47,120 nucleotides of DNA from a virus. The translations under genes and the position numbers were made by a program. Under the pieces are notes generated by a model. The model searched no databases. It saw only the letters and a program-made list of their open reading frames with translations, and had not been told where the DNA came from. Positions 3,499 to 47,120 of this stretch are shown here, in pieces (the first letter of the stretch is position 1; each line of letters starts with the position of its first letter). The stretch covers positions 1 through 47,120 of the IMG/VR virus record IMGVR_UViG_3300018080_000258. The stretch is one strand, 5' to 3'.

Positions 3499-4016
3499 CC
3501 CAATACCCCTACCTCTCCCCAAGCGTTCAAAGTCTTATAGCTAGCGCTGTAGTTGCTCCACTCCGTCCGGAGCACCCTAGTGCTAGGGCCAGTCAAGGTA
3601 AGGTAAGCATTAACCAAGGCAATGTAACCACCGGTTGAATCAAAGACCTTATGACTAAGGTTCAGGGCTGCGGCTGCCTTGGAATAGATCGCATTGTAGG
3701 ACGTGCTACCTAGCGTCCCATGGCCTCCTAAAGAGGCCGTAGAGGCTTCGATACTGGATCGGTTGGCGATGCCATAGACCCCAGCCTTAGCCCCTGCCGT
3801 TTCCGTTGTGTGAATAGATCGGAATGAAAAGATCGCACACTCTGCGTCCAACGGTACGGCTATGTCCCATTGACCGGGACCCCACGGGACCGGGACCACA
3901 CTAAGGGTAGTGTTAGATACTTCCACACTAGACGGTCTAATGTGATGATCGTCCACTCCTACGTTACTCAGTACCGCATGAGCCGTAGGGTGCTCTAGCC
4001 AATCAATTAGCCGCAT
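3495..4016 (-). CDS. Small tail-fibre paralogue 3 (DDHH motif)
   Basis: 173 aa. Third of three tandem relatives (with 4003-4485 and 4485-4985). All begin MRL and carry a DDHH motif near residue 25, followed by a beta-rich segment ending in a PLD/PLG-like turn. This copy shares YSK....LNLSHKVFDS and a following GGYIAL segment with 4485-4985. The sequence between the shared blocks has diverged strongly, as expected for host-binding proteins. It overlaps its neighbours by 14 and 4 nt. A receptor-binding or fibre-tip role is inferred from position and pattern. Confidence 0.75.
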   Translation of the reverse strand: MRLIDWLEHPTAHAVLSNVGVDDHHIRPSSVEVSNTTLSVVPVPWGPGQWDIAVPLDAECAIFSFRSIHTTETAGAKAGVYGIANRSSIEASTASLGGHGTLGSTSYNAIYSKAAAALNLSHKVFDSTGGYIALVNAYLTLTGPSTRVLRTEWSNYSASYKTLNAWGEVGVLG

Positions 4017-4485
4017 AGGTCCCGTAGACGGTTAGGTTTCTGGCAGAGGCAGCCGTATTGTTGAACACGAAAACCGCATCGGAGCCGCTTATGTAGCAGT
4101 CCTTAAGGCGGATTGCGTTTTGCCCAAAGTCAAGGAAGCTAAGGTAGGCATCCCCATGTAGCCGGGAGTATGCTCCCATATAGCTCTGAGTACCGCTAGG
4201 GTAAGGCCTAACCCCTATGGCCATTGATTGCCCGCTAGTGTCGGACCCTACGCAAAAGACTCCCGTATGGCCTTGAATGTCCACATTGACCGTCCCCCGG
4301 AGGACAGCTCTTAGTGTCTTACAGCCGGACTTGCCTAAGGGTATGGTTAGCGAATAGTCCCCAGGGCTGATAGCTTGGCTATTGATGAGGATCCTATCCG
4401 TCACAACGGACGGATGATGATCGTCCGGCCCTACCCCATTCAATAGGGAATGATCCGTAACCGTATGCTTAGTAGGTAACCGCAT
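4003..4485 (-). CDS. Small tail-fibre paralogue 2 (DDHH motif)
   Basis: 160 aa. Middle member of the tandem trio. It shows the shared start MRL and NGVGPDDHHP, and a beta-rich core (ISPGDYSLTIPLG), but the HKVFDS block seen in its two neighbours is replaced by a diverged YSRLHGDAYLSFLDFG. Its ATG overlaps the upstream stop. The remainder shows no catalytic motif. Likely a short fibre or receptor-binding subunit; it is the most diverged of the three. Confidence 0.72.
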   Translation of the reverse strand: MRLPTKHTVTDHSLLNGVGPDDHHPSVVTDRILINSQAISPGDYSLTIPLGKSGCKTLRAVLRGTVNVDIQGHTGVFCVGSDTSGQSMAIGVRPYPSGTQSYMGAYSRLHGDAYLSFLDFGQNAIRLKDCYISGSDAVFVFNNTAASARNLTVYGTYAAN

Positions 4486-4985: not shown

Positions 4986-6268
4986 GTGACAGTAGGCGTA
5001 TTGATCGTCCGATCGATCGCATCGTATAGGGCCGTCCCTACGGCCAAGCTGATAAAGCCGTAGGCCTGATTAGGTTGGTCCGTCCAGACGGCTAAGAGTT
5101 GCCCCCTAGATCGGTTATACACAATGTGCTCAATCGTCCCGTTAGCCGCAGCTGCCCCGGTCAATGCGGGGATATCCTGTTGCATGTAACGCCAAGTAGC
5201 GCCCCCATCCGTGGAGTAGTTAAGGATAGAATCGTTATCCTCGGAGGCTAGGTAGATCGACCCAACGATCTCAAGGCAACGCATCCGCCACTTGCCGATC
5301 GTTCTTTGGAGGGTGCCTCCTCCGCTTTGCTGGGTGTAGTTAATGCCATCCGTAGAGGTATAGCAGGCCTCATCCGTGAGTAGCACGAAAACCCTACGGA
5401 CCTCATCAAAGGCGATGGCTTGCGCCAATTCCGCAGCCGGAATGTTCCCAATACCCGTAGGGGTAGCCCTAGTCCAGACTACTCCGTCCGGGGTAGTCCA
5501 AACGTCAAAGCTTCCGTTATCCCCAATGGCTACGGTTAGCCCTGAGGTTGGATCCGTTGCCATATCGACCACGGTAAAAGATACCGTCTTGGTCGGTACG
5601 GTCTGTGTAAAGCCAGTGATCGGGGTAGCGTCTCGCCAGAAGGACGGAGCCCCATTGTCATCCCCACCGACTAGCCACAATTGGTTAAAGGAGTCCCATA
5701 GCCCTACAGTGGATCCAACTACCGCGGTCCCTGGCAGGACAAGGGTAGTCCAGCCGGCCGTAAGATACTCCCCAACGGATACGGAAGCCACTCCTCCGAT
5801 TAGACTATTGGGTCCGGTATGGGTGGGAAGCTGTGAAGGCCGTTTAGACGCAGCCCAAGTAGCGGTCCCTACTCCGTGGTTAGCGATTGCCCTATAGGCT
5901 TGTCCGTCCCGGGTAATGTCCGCTACACCGGACCGGCCAACTAGCAACCAACCGGGGAGGCCCTCATCATAGGTAGCCCCCTCACCGGAGCATAGCGCGG
6001 CCGTAGGCTCTACCGTAGGCCCTACGGAGATCCAGTTAAGCGCTTGTGCGTCTGCGAAGTATTGCAGCCAAAGCCCGATCTCATTCTTTAGGTGGTTCTC
6101 ATGCTGGGCCGGTGGGATCTCATTCGGAAGGTGGCCATCATCTCTCTTACCGTCCCCCGGATCCACCTTGGTAGCGGTAGCGTCCCAAGTCTCTCCCGGA
6201 TCGTTGATAAGGTTATCGTTAGCCCAAGACGTAACCTTGGAGGGTCTTACTAATTGCTTGTCTGCCAT
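4982..6268 (-). CDS. Tail fibre / receptor-binding protein with sialidase-like blades
   Basis: 428 aa from ATG 6266-6268, chosen because GGATAGG lies just upstream; an upstream in-frame start would overlap the previous gene by 35 nt. The N-terminal ~80 residues carry a fibre-type leader (KVTSWANDNLINDPGETWDA, then HLPNEIPPAQHENHLKNEIG). Residues ~110-400 contain repeated beta-blade patterns such as W..VGDNG...TPDGVVW, YTSTDGINY and YSTDGGATWRYM, as in BNR/Asp-box propellers. These could bind or cut surface glycan, but no complete sialidase active site was recognised. It precedes the three short fibre paralogues. Confidence 0.8.
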   Translation of the reverse strand: MADKQLVRPSKVTSWANDNLINDPGETWDATATKVDPGDGKRDDGHLPNEIPPAQHENHLKNEIGLWLQYFADAQALNWISVGPTVEPTAALCSGEGATYDEGLPGWLLVGRSGVADITRDGQAYRAIANHGVGTATWAASKRPSQLPTHTGPNSLIGGVASVSVGEYLTAGWTTLVLPGTAVVGSTVGLWDSFNQLWLVGGDDNGAPSFWRDATPITGFTQTVPTKTVSFTVVDMATDPTSGLTVAIGDNGSFDVWTTPDGVVWTRATPTGIGNIPAAELAQAIAFDEVRRVFVLLTDEACYTSTDGINYTQQSGGGTLQRTIGKWRMRCLEIVGSIYLASEDNDSILNYSTDGGATWRYMQQDIPALTGAAAANGTIEHIVYNRSRGQLLAVWTDQPNQAYGFISLAVGTALYDAIDRTINTPTVT

Positions 6269-29985: not shown

Positions 29986-30489
29986 CTAGCCCTCCCTCTT
30001 GACCATGCGGATCTCTAGGTCCACTCCGAGGGCCCCAAAGCAACGCGAGGCCAGGCCCTCCGTAATGTTCTCCGAGCGGAGGATCTCAGGGATGCGAGGG
30101 CCGCTAATCTCCAAGCGGCGTGCAAGCTCCGCATGGGACACACCCATGGCAGCGCAAGCCTCCCGGATGAGATCCGCTAGGTACACCTTGGAGAAGTCCC
30201 TAACGGACTTGTTGAACGGGATAGGCTCTGGGTGGACTCCCTTGGGATTGGGGGGAGCCTTCTTAGCAGCCTTCTTAGCCTTGGGCTTGGGGGCCGTCTT
30301 GGGCTTGGGTTTGCTGGCCTTCTTAGGGGCCTTGGGCTTGGCCTTGGGCTTGGGGGCTGCCTTGGGCTTGGGCTTGGGCTTGGACGCCTTAGGGGCCTTC
30401 TCAGAGGCCTTGGGCTTGGGGTCTGTCTTGGGGGCCTCCTCCGGCTTGGACTTGGCAGCGTTGCGGATCTTGTCTGTGATTCCGGACAT
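29986..30489 (-). CDS. Basic Lys/Ala/Pro-repeat protein with C-terminal XRE HTH
   Basis: 167 aa. Residues ~12-85 are almost only Lys, Pro and Ala (KPKPKPKAAPKPKAKPKAPK), like the tail of histone H1 or bacterial Hc1-like proteins. Residues ~105-155 form a helix-turn-helix (AAMGVSHAELARRLEISGPR, then IPEILRSENITEGLASRC) of the XRE type, as in antitoxin-like regulators. This suggests a DNA-binding regulator with a nonspecific DNA-contact tail. Leader TCAACCAACGGAG precedes the ATG. Confidence 0.75.
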   Translation of the reverse strand: MSGITDKIRNAAKSKPEEAPKTDPKPKASEKAPKASKPKPKPKAAPKPKAKPKAPKKASKPKPKTAPKPKAKKAAKKAPPNPKGVHPEPIPFNKSVRDFSKVYLADLIREACAAMGVSHAELARRLEISGPRIPEILRSENITEGLASRCFGALGVDLEIRMVKREG

Positions 30490-34239: not shown

Positions 34240-34779
34240 CTAACTCCCTCCGGCCTTGAGTTGCAAGGCTCGCATGGTATCTAGCTCCTCCAAGGTGAGG
34301 GCCCCTAAGTCATGCGTGTTATGCACGTTGGCGGTAGTCTCGCCATAGATGAGGCGCTGTAGCTCAATCGTGGCCTTAGTCATCTGGACGATCTCCCGGG
34401 GGGACCATCGCAGCTTCTCTCCCTTATCGGCCCTCTCTAGGCACTCCTCCGCAGCCTTGACCGCTAGCGCCTCTAGGTCTAAGAGGAGCGCTATATGCCT
34501 CTTGGCCCTGTCTCTGGCATCCTCCTCTAGAACGTCTATCACTGTGGCCTGTAACTTGCGGTCCAAGTGATCGTCCCACGCAGCTACCCGCAGCCCCCAA
34601 CCGTGCTCCCTATGCCAGGCCCGTAGCGTGCCTATGGCCTTCCCTGTGGCCTCCGCTAGGGCCGTTAGGCACCTAGGTCTAGGGAGGTCCCTAAAGGCTT
34701 GGAACATGGGCCAGCTAAACTCAGTGTCGCACGGCTGGCGATACCATGGGTGCTCTGCGTCATACGTAAGGGCTAGCAT
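34240..34779 (-). CDS. Terminase small subunit-like DNA-binding protein
   Basis: 179 aa. It shows the pattern of a small HTH/terminase-like family: EFSWPMFQAFRDLPRPRCLTALAEATGKAIGTLRAWHREHGWGLRVAAWDDHL (key parts W24, FRDLPRPR, HGW, AWD), then long helices and GALTLEELDTMRALQ near the end. Such proteins would recognise the packaging start. It is first in the minus-strand unit, next to the origin region and 5 kb from the large subunit, and is closed off by three terminators. GTTTAAAC lies 3 nt upstream of the ATG. Alternative: a transcription regulator. Confidence 0.7.
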   Translation of the reverse strand: MLALTYDAEHPWYRQPCDTEFSWPMFQAFRDLPRPRCLTALAEATGKAIGTLRAWHREHGWGLRVAAWDDHLDRKLQATVIDVLEEDARDRAKRHIALLLDLEALAVKAAEECLERADKGEKLRWSPREIVQMTKATIELQRLIYGETTANVHNTHDLGALTLEELDTMRALQLKAGGS

Positions 34780-34821
34780 AGCGTTTAAACTAGCCTACCA
34801 CGTTACGGCTACTTACGCTAC

Positions 34822-34835
34822 CTACCGATCGGTAG
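34822..34835. promoter_or_regulatory. 14-bp perfect palindrome, candidate operator
   Basis: CTACCGATCGGTAG is a perfect palindrome about 45 bp upstream of the terminase small-subunit-like start, in the region divergent to the XRE regulator. A dimeric repressor could bind here to control the minus-strand unit. It also contains GATC, a possible site for the phage Dam-type enzyme. Confidence 0.55.
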
Positions 34836-35072
34836 AGAAAAGCACTCCGGCCGATTCCCTAGCCATATCCACGGCTTAGGCCACAATCCGCACCCCTAAG
34901 TTAAACGTAGCTGAGTAGCCGATTCCCTAGCCATTCCGCATACCTACAGAGGTCTACTCACTAAAAAACGAAGTGAGTAAGAAGTGAGTAGCAACAACTA
35001 GAACGATATCAGGCCCTTACAGCGTTTCTACTCACTTACTCATTAGGTGAGTAGCGCCCACCCTTCCAATGA

Positions 35073-35081
35073 TTATGCACA
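35073..35081 (+). promoter_or_regulatory. DnaA box
   Basis: TTATGCACA matches the consensus TTATNCACA exactly. It lies within the repeat array next to the AT-rich stretch, so the host initiator may take part in starting replication. Confidence 0.6.
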
Positions 35082-35169
35082 CTTGCCAACCATGGTCCGC
35101 ATACTTAGCACCCCTAAGGGCTGGCGATCGGCCTTCCTACAAGTCATATAGGAGAGAAACACTCAATTA

Positions 35170-35205
35170 GTAGGACATTATCCTACCCATGACATATTCT
35201 GTCAT
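35170..35205. promoter_or_regulatory. Two tandem 17-bp dyads, candidate operators
   Basis: GTAGGA-5nt-TCCTAC (35170-35186) and ATGACA-5nt-TGTCAT (35189-35205) share the same 6-5-6 design, with centres 19 bp apart, close to two helical turns. Their arms differ in sequence. They lie in the AT-rich centre of the divergent region near -10-like TATAGT (35234). Likely binding sites for dimeric regulators. Confidence 0.55.
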
Positions 35206-35443
35206 ACCTCCTCTTTTCTTCCTTCTATATAGGTATAGTAGTGAGTAATGAGTAAAACACCCCTTTCCTATGCGATTCTCCACACTTGCGGCTACTCACT
35301 TTCTACTCACTGCTACCGTAGCTGAGTAGCCCTCCCCCATAATCCCGGAATCGTTCAAGATTCGGCTACTCATTAGGCCAGCTGGCCGGTCCCGGATCGC
35401 TGGGCTTGACCGCTACACCCCTACTGTGTTCTTATGGTTCCCT

Positions 35444-35803
35444 ATGACTCCTTTAGGTGTAGGTGCAAGGCTAAGGGCTGCCAGGGCTGCGGCTCGACTT
35501 ACCCAGACGGCAGTAGGGAAGGCCCTCGATATGGGTGCCGCGACGATCGCCAACTACGAAGCGGAGCGGACAGCCCCCTCCCTCCTCATCCTTGGGCAGC
35601 TAGCGGCCCTCTACCGCGTCTCTTGTGACTGGCTTGTCACGGGTAGGGCAAGGCTGCCTCATGCCTTCTCGGAGCCCTATGGGCCCGAGGATCTACCCCC
35701 TACCAAGGGACCCACGGTCCTGCGTTGCTCCCATAGCGTCCCGGTCCGGGATCGCTGTCCCGATTGCGAACAAGAGGAAAAGGAACGGAGGCTAGGCCCA
35801 TGA
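35444..35803 (+). CDS. XRE-family (Cro/CI-like) transcription regulator
   Basis: 119 aa from ATG 35444; GTG 35426 would add six residues. No ribosome site is visible before either, and a TTGACC at 35406 could give a near-leaderless mRNA. Residues ~6-60 form the XRE helix-turn-helix: LRAARAAARLTQTAVGKALD, then ATIANYEAERTAPSLLILGQ and LYRVSCDWLVTG. The C-terminal part has CSHSVPVRDRCPDC, a likely metal site, rather than a CI-type cleavage domain. It is first in the plus-strand unit and probably controls the divergent region. Confidence 0.85.
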   Translation: MTPLGVGARLRAARAAARLTQTAVGKALDMGAATIANYEAERTAPSLLILGQLAALYRVSCDWLVTGRARLPHAFSEPYGPEDLPPTKGPTVLRCSHSVPVRDRCPDCEQEEKERRLGP

Positions 35804-36138
35804 GCTGCCGTAAGAGGGGCCATAGGTCCGGCTGGATCCGCCACAGCAAACGGCTACGGATCTACGCCAGGGATGAGTTTAGGTGCGTCTACTGCAATCG
35901 ACAGTACCCCAGACTCAGCCTTACCCTAGATCACGTCCGGGCAAGGTCTAACGGAGGCCATAACCACCACACTAACCTAGTCACGGCTTGCCGCAGCTGT
36001 AACAGCTCAAAGCAGGACCTAACCCTAAGGCAATGGGTAGTAAAACGATGGGGATGGGCTGGCCCCATGGCTTGGAAGCCCCGTTTAAACACAATGCGCC
36101 GCAGAGTCCGCAACGCTACCCGGAGGGTCCTCCCATGA
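35800..36138 (+). CDS. HNH endonuclease
   Basis: 112 aa from ATG 35800, overlapping the regulator stop (ATGA), with GGAG upstream. HNH pattern: RDEFRCVYCNRQYPRLSLTLDHVRARSNGG, then NHHTNLVTACRSCNSSK (key residues: CxxC, DHV, NLV, CxxCN). Metal-binding CxxC pairs support activity. Basic tail (RRRVRNATRRVL). It could be a free-standing nuclease that assists packaging or replication, or a homing-type enzyme. A GTTTAAAC lies near its end (36083-36090). Confidence 0.87.
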   Translation: MSCRKRGHRSGWIRHSKRLRIYARDEFRCVYCNRQYPRLSLTLDHVRARSNGGHNHHTNLVTACRSCNSSKQDLTLRQWVVKRWGWAGPMAWKPRLNTMRRRVRNATRRVLP

Positions 36139-36299
36139 GCCTAGCCACGTTTAGACGCAGCTGCCCGGTCTGCCTTGGGGCAGGATACCGGTCCTGGTAT
36201 CAGAGCCTCTGCGCGTCCCCAGGCTACCGGATCCATCTCATCCCTTGCGGCTGTGTCTTGCCGCATCTAGCGCAAGCGTTGTTTGGGTGGTTGCCATGA
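36135..36299 (+). CDS. Small zinc-ribbon protein, 54 aa
   Basis: Reads from ATG 36135 to TGA 36297-36299 with ATGA overlaps at both ends, which supports it as a real gene. Cysteines in SCPVCLGAGYRS and PCGCVLPH suggest a compact metal site. It sits between the nuclease and the primase-helicase and could be an accessory subunit of either. GGAGG lies upstream. Confidence 0.7.
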   Translation: MSLATFRRSCPVCLGAGYRSWYQSLCASPGYRIHLIPCGCVLPHLAQALFGWLP

Positions 36300-38683
36300 G
36301 GGTGTCCCTGTTCAGGCACGCCAGGGATAACGATCCCATCATGCGGACCTATGCCGATTGGGAGGCCTTTACCAAGGACATAGGCCCCCATGAGGTCCGC
36401 CAATCCAAGACCCTCTGCCCAGCTGTGTCCCCTGCCATCTATGAGCCTGGCGAGACTAGGGCTAATGACAACGTTATAGGGTTCTCTTACGGGCCCCTGG
36501 ACTTGGACAAGCTCACCCTAGAGCAAGCAAACCACACTATCGAGCTAGCCCAGCCCTACGGCTACGTGGCTTACTCCACCTACAGCTACTTTAAACGGCT
36601 GCCCCTCCTCAGCTTCCGGATCTTTTTCCGGCTCTCCCGGGAGGTCCACCCAGAGGAATGGTCGGACTTCTGGGAGGCCCTGGTAATGCTTATGGGGGGC
36701 TACGGAGATCCACAGTGCAAGGACGAAAGCCGGTTGTACTTTGGGCCGTTCTGTCCCCCGGAGGATGATCCGTCTAAACACTTCGTTACGGTCAATGAGG
36801 GGCCCCCCATAGACGTAGACAAGCTCCTAGGCAATCCCCCACCCTTACCGGGCCCTGGTGAGCCTCAGAGCCCTACCACGGTCCTTAGCCGGGCAGCCTT
36901 TGAGGCCTTCTCCAAAAAGCTGGCCAAGTCCTCTACGCCCTACCTAGCGGACCAAGGCAGCCGGCTTGTCATGGTCTGCAATGGGGAGAGCTTTGCCACC
37001 CAAGGGGAACGGGACGTAATGCTTTTCAAGCTCTGCAATCGGATTGTAGACGCTTTCCCGGACTACGATCCCGCACCCATTGGGGAGCTATTCCGGCCGT
37101 CCCTGGATCTAATGGCCTCCCTACACCCCAGGGACCACCTAACGGTTGACGACGTAATAGCCAAGCTCTCAACCATCCAAGCCGCAAGGCAGCGACAAGC
37201 GACGCAACGCAAGCGCTCCGATGATGAGCGGAAGCGGACGCGCATAAGGCTAGCCTTTGGCACGGATAGGGTACAGCTCTACCAACCGGATGAGCTGCCA
37301 CCGGAGGACTTCTACTACGTCCAGAGGGGAAAGGACTATTACGTCTGGGCAGACGGCAGCTACCGGGGGCCCTACGTCAAGGACGAGTTTTACGCTCAAT
37401 CTCTGGTGCTCCTCAGCCCTGCCCCGGTGCAGCTCCTCAACATATCCAAGACTGGCAACATTACGTTTAAACCCATACCGGATCTCATGCGAGAACATGG
37501 GGTAGCAGCCCATAAGGCAATTGTGGATCTCACGGCTGACGAAACCACGTTCCGGACCAAGAGCCGGACCATAGTGGAAGCCCCTTGCCCCCTCAGGACA
37601 GACCTAACCCCTAGGTTCTCCCGGGACGTGGACATATGGCTACGCAAGCTAGGGGGTCTGCTACAGCATGAGCTACTTAGCTGGATAGCCTACGTTACCA
37701 AGCTCTCCCGGCCCTCCGTGGCCTTGCTCCTAACGGGGGCCCCGGATGCGGGTAAGTCCTTCCTAGCCCTAACCATGGCCAGGCTATGGGGGTTTAAACA
37801 GCCTACTCCCCTCGATAAGGCCATGGGCCAGTTTAACAGCATGATCGCGGATTGCCCCCTCATCCTAGCGGACGAATATCTCCCAACCGATATGAGGGGA
37901 GAGCTTAGGCTTAAGGAGCTACGCAACTTCATTCAAGCCGTGGTTAGGCCGTACTCCCGCAAGTTCCAATCCGAGGCCGATATGGTAGGGGCTATCCGGC
38001 TCATCATTACGGCCAACAATATTGACCTAGTGTCCACAAGGGAGGCCTTAGGCATCAATGACATTAAGGCCCTTTCGGAGCGCTTCCTATCGGTACACGT
38101 GACCCCAGACGCAGCGGAGTGGTTAGCTACGTGCAATACCCACAAGTGGCTAGATGAGGACACAGTAGCAAGGCACGCCTTATGGTTGCGTGACAATCAC
38201 AAGTGGGTCCCGGTGGGCCGGTTTGGGATCCGCAGCTCCTCTAACGCCTTTGCCTTGGGCCTCGCAACCAAGGCCGGGCTAGCCTCCTCCCTGTGTCGCT
38301 GGCTCTGCTCTTTCCTGGTAGACCCCAACAAGCTGGGGCTACGCAATAACACCCTCTGGGTAAGGGTGAAGGGTGGGAAGCTTCTACTCCACGTCAAGGG
38401 GCTGCTAGATATGTGGGACGCCTACCTTCCGGGACCCTCCCCAGCTGTGTCCACCCTAAGGCGTGCCATTGCCGCGATCTCAATCGGCCGGACTCGAATC
38501 AAGGATGGGTTTGACCAATTGCAAAACTACCGCATCGTAGACGTGGCAGCCCTTAAGGCATGGGCCAGCGATCACGACGATTACATAGGGGAGGAAGACA
38601 TAGACGCAGCCCTTAAGAGAGAAACCGAGGTCAAGACGGCCCTTAAGGCCGTTGCCAATATCACGAAAAGGAAGCCAGCATGA
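36296..38683 (+). CDS. Primase-helicase (PrimPol-like plus D5/SF3 helicase)
   Basis: 795 aa from ATG 36296. The N-terminal ~200 residues resemble archaeo-eukaryotic-type primase-polymerase domains: GPLDLDKL with DxD near 69-71, GYVAYSTYSYFKRLPLLSFR near 90-108, and DESRLYFGPFCPP near 143. The C-terminal half is a helicase: Walker A TGAPDAGKS near 480-488, Walker B LILADEYLP near 522-530, and sensor RLIITANN, as in D5/DUF5906 helicases. It should unwind DNA and prime synthesis for the phage polymerase. The fusion pairs with the family A polymerase encoded downstream. Confidence 0.85.
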   Translation: MRVSLFRHARDNDPIMRTYADWEAFTKDIGPHEVRQSKTLCPAVSPAIYEPGETRANDNVIGFSYGPLDLDKLTLEQANHTIELAQPYGYVAYSTYSYFKRLPLLSFRIFFRLSREVHPEEWSDFWEALVMLMGGYGDPQCKDESRLYFGPFCPPEDDPSKHFVTVNEGPPIDVDKLLGNPPPLPGPGEPQSPTTVLSRAAFEAFSKKLAKSSTPYLADQGSRLVMVCNGESFATQGERDVMLFKLCNRIVDAFPDYDPAPIGELFRPSLDLMASLHPRDHLTVDDVIAKLSTIQAARQRQATQRKRSDDERKRTRIRLAFGTDRVQLYQPDELPPEDFYYVQRGKDYYVWADGSYRGPYVKDEFYAQSLVLLSPAPVQLLNISKTGNITFKPIPDLMREHGVAAHKAIVDLTADETTFRTKSRTIVEAPCPLRTDLTPRFSRDVDIWLRKLGGLLQHELLSWIAYVTKLSRPSVALLLTGAPDAGKSFLALTMARLWGFKQPTPLDKAMGQFNSMIADCPLILADEYLPTDMRGELRLKELRNFIQAVVRPYSRKFQSEADMVGAIRLIITANNIDLVSTREALGINDIKALSERFLSVHVTPDAAEWLATCNTHKWLDEDTVARHALWLRDNHKWVPVGRFGIRSSSNAFALGLATKAGLASSLCRWLCSFLVDPNKLGLRNNTLWVRVKGGKLLLHVKGLLDMWDAYLPGPSPAVSTLRRAIAAISIGRTRIKDGFDQLQNYRIVDVAALKAWASDHDDYIGEEDIDAALKRETEVKTALKAVANITKRKPA

Positions 38684-46940: not shown

Positions 46941-47120
46941 GGATGACGTGAAAGCGCCTCCGCTGGACCGCGGTAATACCTCCGGGAGCGGAGGCCCCCT
47001 CAAAGCGATAGCGCCATGGCTTAACGGCCTTATCCCCGTCTAGGGGAATGGCTAGCCGATACTCCCAACGGCCTACGGATGGGTTACTAAGGCTGCCCAT
47101 TACTACGGTGTATTGGCTGC
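46915..47120 (-). CDS. Small tail/fibre-associated protein, 3' part
   Basis: Continuation of the frame beginning at 259 on the minus strand; in the circle it runs 259 to 1, then 46997 to TAA 46915-46917. The end reads VQRRRFHVIPSPFYPPS. Within the window the segment 46998-47120 duplicates the start. A 9-bp inverted pair GCCTCCGCT/AGCGGAGGC (46956-46964, 46987-46995) lies in this coding part and might slow convergent transcription. Confidence 0.85.
   Translation of the reverse strand, partial: SQYTVVMGSLSNPSVGRWEYRLAIPLDGDKAVKPWRYRFEGASAPGGITAVQRRRFHVIPSPFYPPS
46998..47120. repeat. Terminal direct repeat, right copy
   Basis: Exact copy of 1-123. See the left copy for interpretation. Confidence 0.95.

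Follow-up and report, generated by a model that had tools for sequence, protein, structure and literature searches.

What is the function of the 664-bp intergenic region from which the two gene arms of this phage diverge? The stretch of DNA analysed (47,120 bp; hereafter the window) has identical ends (1-123 = 46998-47120), so that the contig can be closed to a circle of 46,997 bp and represents a complete circular phage map. No DNA-level match was found among annotated phages. The left arm, on the minus strand, carries the genes for TerL, portal, capsid and tail proteins, and the right arm those for an XRE-type regulator, an HNH endonuclease, a primase-helicase, a PD-(D/E)XK nuclease, a helicase, a family A DNA polymerase and a RuvC-like resolvase. 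The arms part at 34.8-35.4 kb, between the start of the terminase small subunit gene (TerS, 34779, minus strand) and that of the XRE gene (ATG at 35444, plus strand, placed by alignment). An earlier note on this DNA had read the region as an iteron-type origin combined with an operator region, serving a phage that carries its own primase-helicase and possibly depending on host DnaA as well.

The repeats themselves are evident. Of the 28 TGAGTA words in the 47-kb window, thirteen lie in the region, in both orientations, eight of the thirteen being GTGAGTA, and the most frequent 7-mer of the region occurs nine times against a maximum of five in 500 dinucleotide shuffles, in agreement with the earlier count of about a dozen GTGAGTA-type repeats. 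The iteron unit is asymmetric and about 8 bp long, (A)GTGAGTAG. Beyond the first reading, we found that the repeats are not scattered but form two mirror-image arrays flanking an AT-rich core (Table 1). Under one reflection the arrays mirror each other site for site, with six of six pairs coinciding within 1 bp. Six mirrored pairs were reached in none of 20,000 trials for each of two randomisations, one of positions and orientations, the other of the order of the gaps within each array combined with random orientations.

Table 1. Features of the divergent region and its neighbours. Signs before site positions give the orientation of the word; each position is the lowest coordinate of the word.
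Feature	Position	Strand	Remarks
Terminase small subunit gene (TerS), left neighbour	34240-34779	-	phrog_6299, E=7e-13 (PHROG)
Left iteron array, 7 TGAGTA-type sites	34911-35054	both	From word positions and mirror test; sites +34912, -34955, +34974, +34985, -35029, -35037, +35048
Core between arrays	35056-35240		AT-rich; candidate region for melting and for divergent promoters
DnaA-box-like word TTATGCACA, exact	35073-35081	+	Absent from the region in six relatives
17-bp dyad GTAGGA-CATTA-TCCTAC	35170-35186		Over -10 of leftward promoter; proposed XRE operator
Sigma70-like leftward promoter ATGACA-17-GATAAT	35177-35205	-	10/12; one found, 0.7 expected by chance
17-bp dyad ATGACA-TATTC-TGTCAT	35189-35205		Over -35 of leftward promoter; proposed XRE operator
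Right iteron array, 6 sites, mirroring the left	35241-35373	both	Sites +35242, +35249, -35293, -35304, +35323, -35367
XRE-type HTH regulator gene	35444-35803	+	PF01381, E=9e-11; C-terminal Cys/His (zinc-ribbon-like) motif
HNH endonuclease gene, between XRE and primase	35800-36138	+	Absent at this place in relatives
Primase-helicase gene	36296-38683	+	NrS-1-like DUF5906 helicase domain, predicted C-terminal winged helix; proposed iteron-binding initiator

The other elements described earlier, namely the AT-rich stretch, the two 6-5-6 dyads and one exact TTATGCACA, were likewise all recovered. GC content falls to 33% over 35189-35248, compared with 57% for the genome. Dyads of the 6-5-6 form number 28 in the window, so a single one would be weak evidence. 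Since both dyads cover the leftward promoter, we propose that the XRE protein probably represses this promoter through them as candidate operators. The two dyads have the form of palindromic, fixed-length sites at a promoter, which the GTGAGTA repeats do not, and neither dyad was found in the relatives described below.

A search with TerL yielded ten viral contigs, and a search with TerS added L028, the other end of the contig of L017. In the relatives that reach the region, the order TerS, intergenic region, XRE, primase is kept, with the XRE gene running straight into the primase gene and no HNH gene in between; their TerS proteins also match phrog_6299. An array was present in seven of seven regions (the window, L011, L014, L015, L016, L028 and L018), while the repeat word varied: TGAGTAG in the window, TGAGACA in L011, L014, L015, L016 and L028, and AAGTGGG (GTGGG) in L018, where the repeat count was marginally above that of shuffles (5 of 500 reached it). 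Across these genomes tandem copies usually follow each other at 7-11 bp, and convergent pairs are spaced by 47-51 bp. Such convergent pairs total 16, compared with random means of 3-5, and none of 5000 randomisations reached 16, although these statistics may be somewhat flattering, with the relatives' words picked after looking and degenerate copies included. All seven genomes have two iteron sets flanking an AT-rich stretch, the core between them being about 80-110 bp in the relatives and longer, 194 bp, in the window. The word has thus changed and the layout has been kept, as expected of binding sites that co-evolve with a protein.

The weaker arrays of L030 (CTGTGTGC) and L024 (AAGGTGG) were left out of this count. 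L030 also holds a near-perfect palindrome of about 50 bp between TerS (from 4713) and a gene at 3988-4335, centred in CATCATAATATG and lying between the CTGTGTGC repeats. Single-sequence scans of viral_contigs confirmed no close relatives of TerS and primase, and a scan for GTGAGTAGNNNGTGAGTA returned 20 contigs, none with related genes. In genome_contigs, a scan with the TerL alignment returned only TerL proteins about 34% identical, mostly from Rhizobiales and Methylobacterium, on contigs that matched neither primase nor TerS nor polymerase; no host can therefore be named from them.

Three neighbouring or host proteins other than the primase-helicase could in principle read such repeats. One is TerS, if the arrays were a packaging start (pac or cos). 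The pac site of phage P1 has short repeats on both sides of the cut; here, the TerS gene is directly adjacent to the array region in the window and in six relatives, and the 123-bp terminal repeat that closes the contig into a circle would suit headful packaging. Repeats serving TerS would, however, be expected to travel with its gene, and in three phages they do not. In L029, TerS lies next to TerL with no primase nearby, and no array was found upstream of it; in L024, 2.4 kb separate TerS from the divergent region, and the DNA beside TerS has no array. The decisive comparison comes from one phage, the 95-kb contig L204, which has replication genes in common with the window, including the primase (38-42% identical), nuclease and helicase. 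Its 14-kb locus has neither an XRE nor a TerS match, yet ten TGTGCTG words, all the copies in the locus, lie just upstream of the primase gene, within 463 bp (5218-5680), in a stretch with 44% GC compared with 60%. Spacings of 57 and 59 bp in L204 fit the 47-51 bp rule less well, and L031, with four ACACCCC/GGGGTGT words beside TerS, is ambiguous as to whether repeats travel with TerS. As judged from these sequences, an array without XRE or TerS (L204) and TerS genes without an array (L029, L024) indicate that the array goes with the primase gene: the iterons lie next to the gene of the proposed initiator and travel with it (L204, L029). A packaging site is accordingly an improbable reading. 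A role of the repeats as XRE operators, forming a multi-site repressor array over two divergent operons with no part in replication, also seems unlikely. The region is a divergent promoter region adjoining the XRE gene, arrays of this kind could also cause DNA loops, and the TGAGACA genomes share the XRE residues at the end of the recognition helix and following it (NW[ED]R), where the window and L018 have others. On the other side, the positions at which XRE is expected to contact bases carry different residues in L011, L014, L015 and L028, all of which have TGAGACA, and the repeat words are not palindromic, occurring singly, in tandem and inverted at several spacings; contact residues that vary under the same word, together with a non-palindromic word, make XRE an unlikely binder of the repeats. 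The array of L204 occurs without an XRE gene in the locus, and the two core dyads are better XRE-type sites than the repeats are.

The third protein is host DnaA, which could open the DNA with help from the phage repeats, as the earlier note envisaged on the basis of the single TTATGCACA between the arrays. In L204, moreover, a gene for DnaA domain IV adjoins the array region and a TTATCCACA word is visible between the array and the primase gene. Against this, the box is the only one in the region, the whole window contains two DnaA-like words where 1.1 are expected, so that a single box is not significant genome-wide, and no DnaA box was found in the corresponding region of the six relatives. 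The conserved DnaA boxes that would mark a DnaA-dependent iteron origin are therefore not found beside these iterons, dependence on host DnaA is not supported, and we regard such an origin as very improbable. The L204 gene (4529-4969, minus strand) encodes a stand-alone DnaA domain IV (PF08299, E=1.6e-21), a phage protein that may recruit or block DnaA.

The reading we favour as likely is that of a replication origin of the P4/PICI type, read by the phage's own primase-helicase, with a promoter lying over it that is probably repressed by the XRE protein. From the observed arrays, their symmetry, the conserved spacing and the association with the primase gene, we propose both the binding and the start of replication. 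The primase-helicase would bind the iterons through its C-terminal winged helix, assemble on both sides of the core, open the core and start replication there, as P4 alpha and the PICI/SaPI Rep proteins do, and the leftward promoter of the core, lying under the two dyads, would be controlled by the neighbouring XRE protein. The tie to the primase-helicase made in the earlier note is supported by the array accompanying the primase gene across phages. The same comparison and the P4/PICI-like layout strengthen the origin half of its combined reading, while the operator half stays a proposal, with dyads that are not conserved. GC skew, put forward earlier as a check, has its minimum at 30.1 kb, away from the 35-kb region. 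AT skew has its minimum at 35.8 kb, which is not decisive because a switch in gene orientation alone can produce one.

The primase-helicase has features expected of such an initiator. Its helicase domain matches PF19263 (E=6e-5, under the curated cut-off) and was counted as superfamily-3-type, and the NrS-1 primase (PDB 6k9c) gives a weak match over the helicase region (E=0.036). The C-terminus is a predicted winged helix, with pLDDT of about 80-90 in most of the domain, which was used alone in place of the poor whole-primase model (mean pLDDT 61). One of its structural matches is 8tch_A 452-561, from the C-terminal part of the initiator helicase of SaPIbov1 (Z 7.3, rmsd 3.4, 95 residues), the Z score lying under 8, in the range where, according to the tool's warning, a common fold alone could explain the match. 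Further structural matches were the oriT-binding protein of pCW3 and the winged helices of Cdc6/ORC; Foldseek alone gave no significant match for the domain. No clear joint variation was seen between the recognition helix of the primase and the repeat word, L028 and L204 having similar helices and different words.

Known systems offer close parallels. PICI origins are described as always having two iteron sets on either side of an AT-rich region, an arrangement said to occur in no other known bacterial replicon (PMC6092414), and the PICI/SaPI origin adjoins the gene for an initiator helicase, which recognises the iterons by its C-terminal domain (PMC6092414, PMC7581432). The region studied here resembles this rep-ori layout (SaPIbov1 Rep, EcCICFT073 pri-rep-ori) in its two iteron sets around an AT-rich region beside an initiator-helicase gene and, by model, in the C-terminal winged helix of SaPIbov1 Rep. 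It differs in belonging to a full-size phage, in lying upstream of the gene instead of just downstream, between TerS and XRE in a divergent promoter region, in the union of primase and helicase in one protein, and in its site-for-site mirror symmetry. In phage P4, the single protein alpha primes, unwinds and binds the origin repeats through a C-terminal winged helix (PMC4234260). When measured in the same way, the annotated type 1 repeats of P4 (ori1 and crr) have tandem spacings of 9-11 bp and inverted-pair centres 43 bp apart, compared with about 42-46 bp here, and in both systems 8-bp repeats occur in both orientations. With the shared GTGA cores aligned, the P4 pairs face the opposite way, and the resemblance is therefore one of spacing and does not prove homology; P4 alpha also has a Toprim-type primase, ori1 and crr are separate sites kilobases apart, and the repeat is TGTTCACC.

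The primase-polymerase-helicase of phage NrS-1 shares a related helicase domain (PF19263). For NrS-1, only two 8-nt sites mid-genome have been suggested as origin (PMC7102993), and iteron arrays or a winged helix were not found in the text of that paper; we found no established origin for the NrS-1-like primase-helicase group. Iteron plasmid origins with DnaA boxes share the iterons and the AT-rich stretch and differ from the present case, in which a helicase-primase is proposed as initiator, each side has repeats in both orientations, and no DnaA box is conserved.

Complete phages of about 45-47 kb that encode a DNA polymerase of their own show the PICI-like layout next to an NrS-1-like primase-helicase. 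With six relatives that have the same geometry and different words, the specificity between origin and initiator becomes directly testable. More tentatively, replication in this clade of full-size phages may begin at an iteron origin with mirror symmetry, where fixed inverted pairs of about 44 bp would place two assemblies of the primase-helicase opposite each other across the core, the word changing between phages so that each initiator fires its own origin only. If so, a layout thought unique to phage satellites would extend to full-size phages, which would hint at the source from which satellites may have acquired it.

Several further observations concern the rest of the map. No RNA families or tRNA genes were found in the window. 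Members of the TerS family sit directly before TerL in L124 and L128. A Lys/Pro/Ala-rich protein (29986-30489) ends in an XRE-type HTH that is kept in the relatives upstream of the methyltransferase and TerL. It was considered as a repeat binder and judged unlikely, because L016 and L018 have different repeats and an almost identical recognition helix in this protein; it is possibly a late regulator. Tandem repeats with units of 30 bp, 69 bp and 6-24 bp lie at 285-432, 1216-1427 and 30269-30383, respectively, the last within the Lys/Pro/Ala-rich coding stretch.
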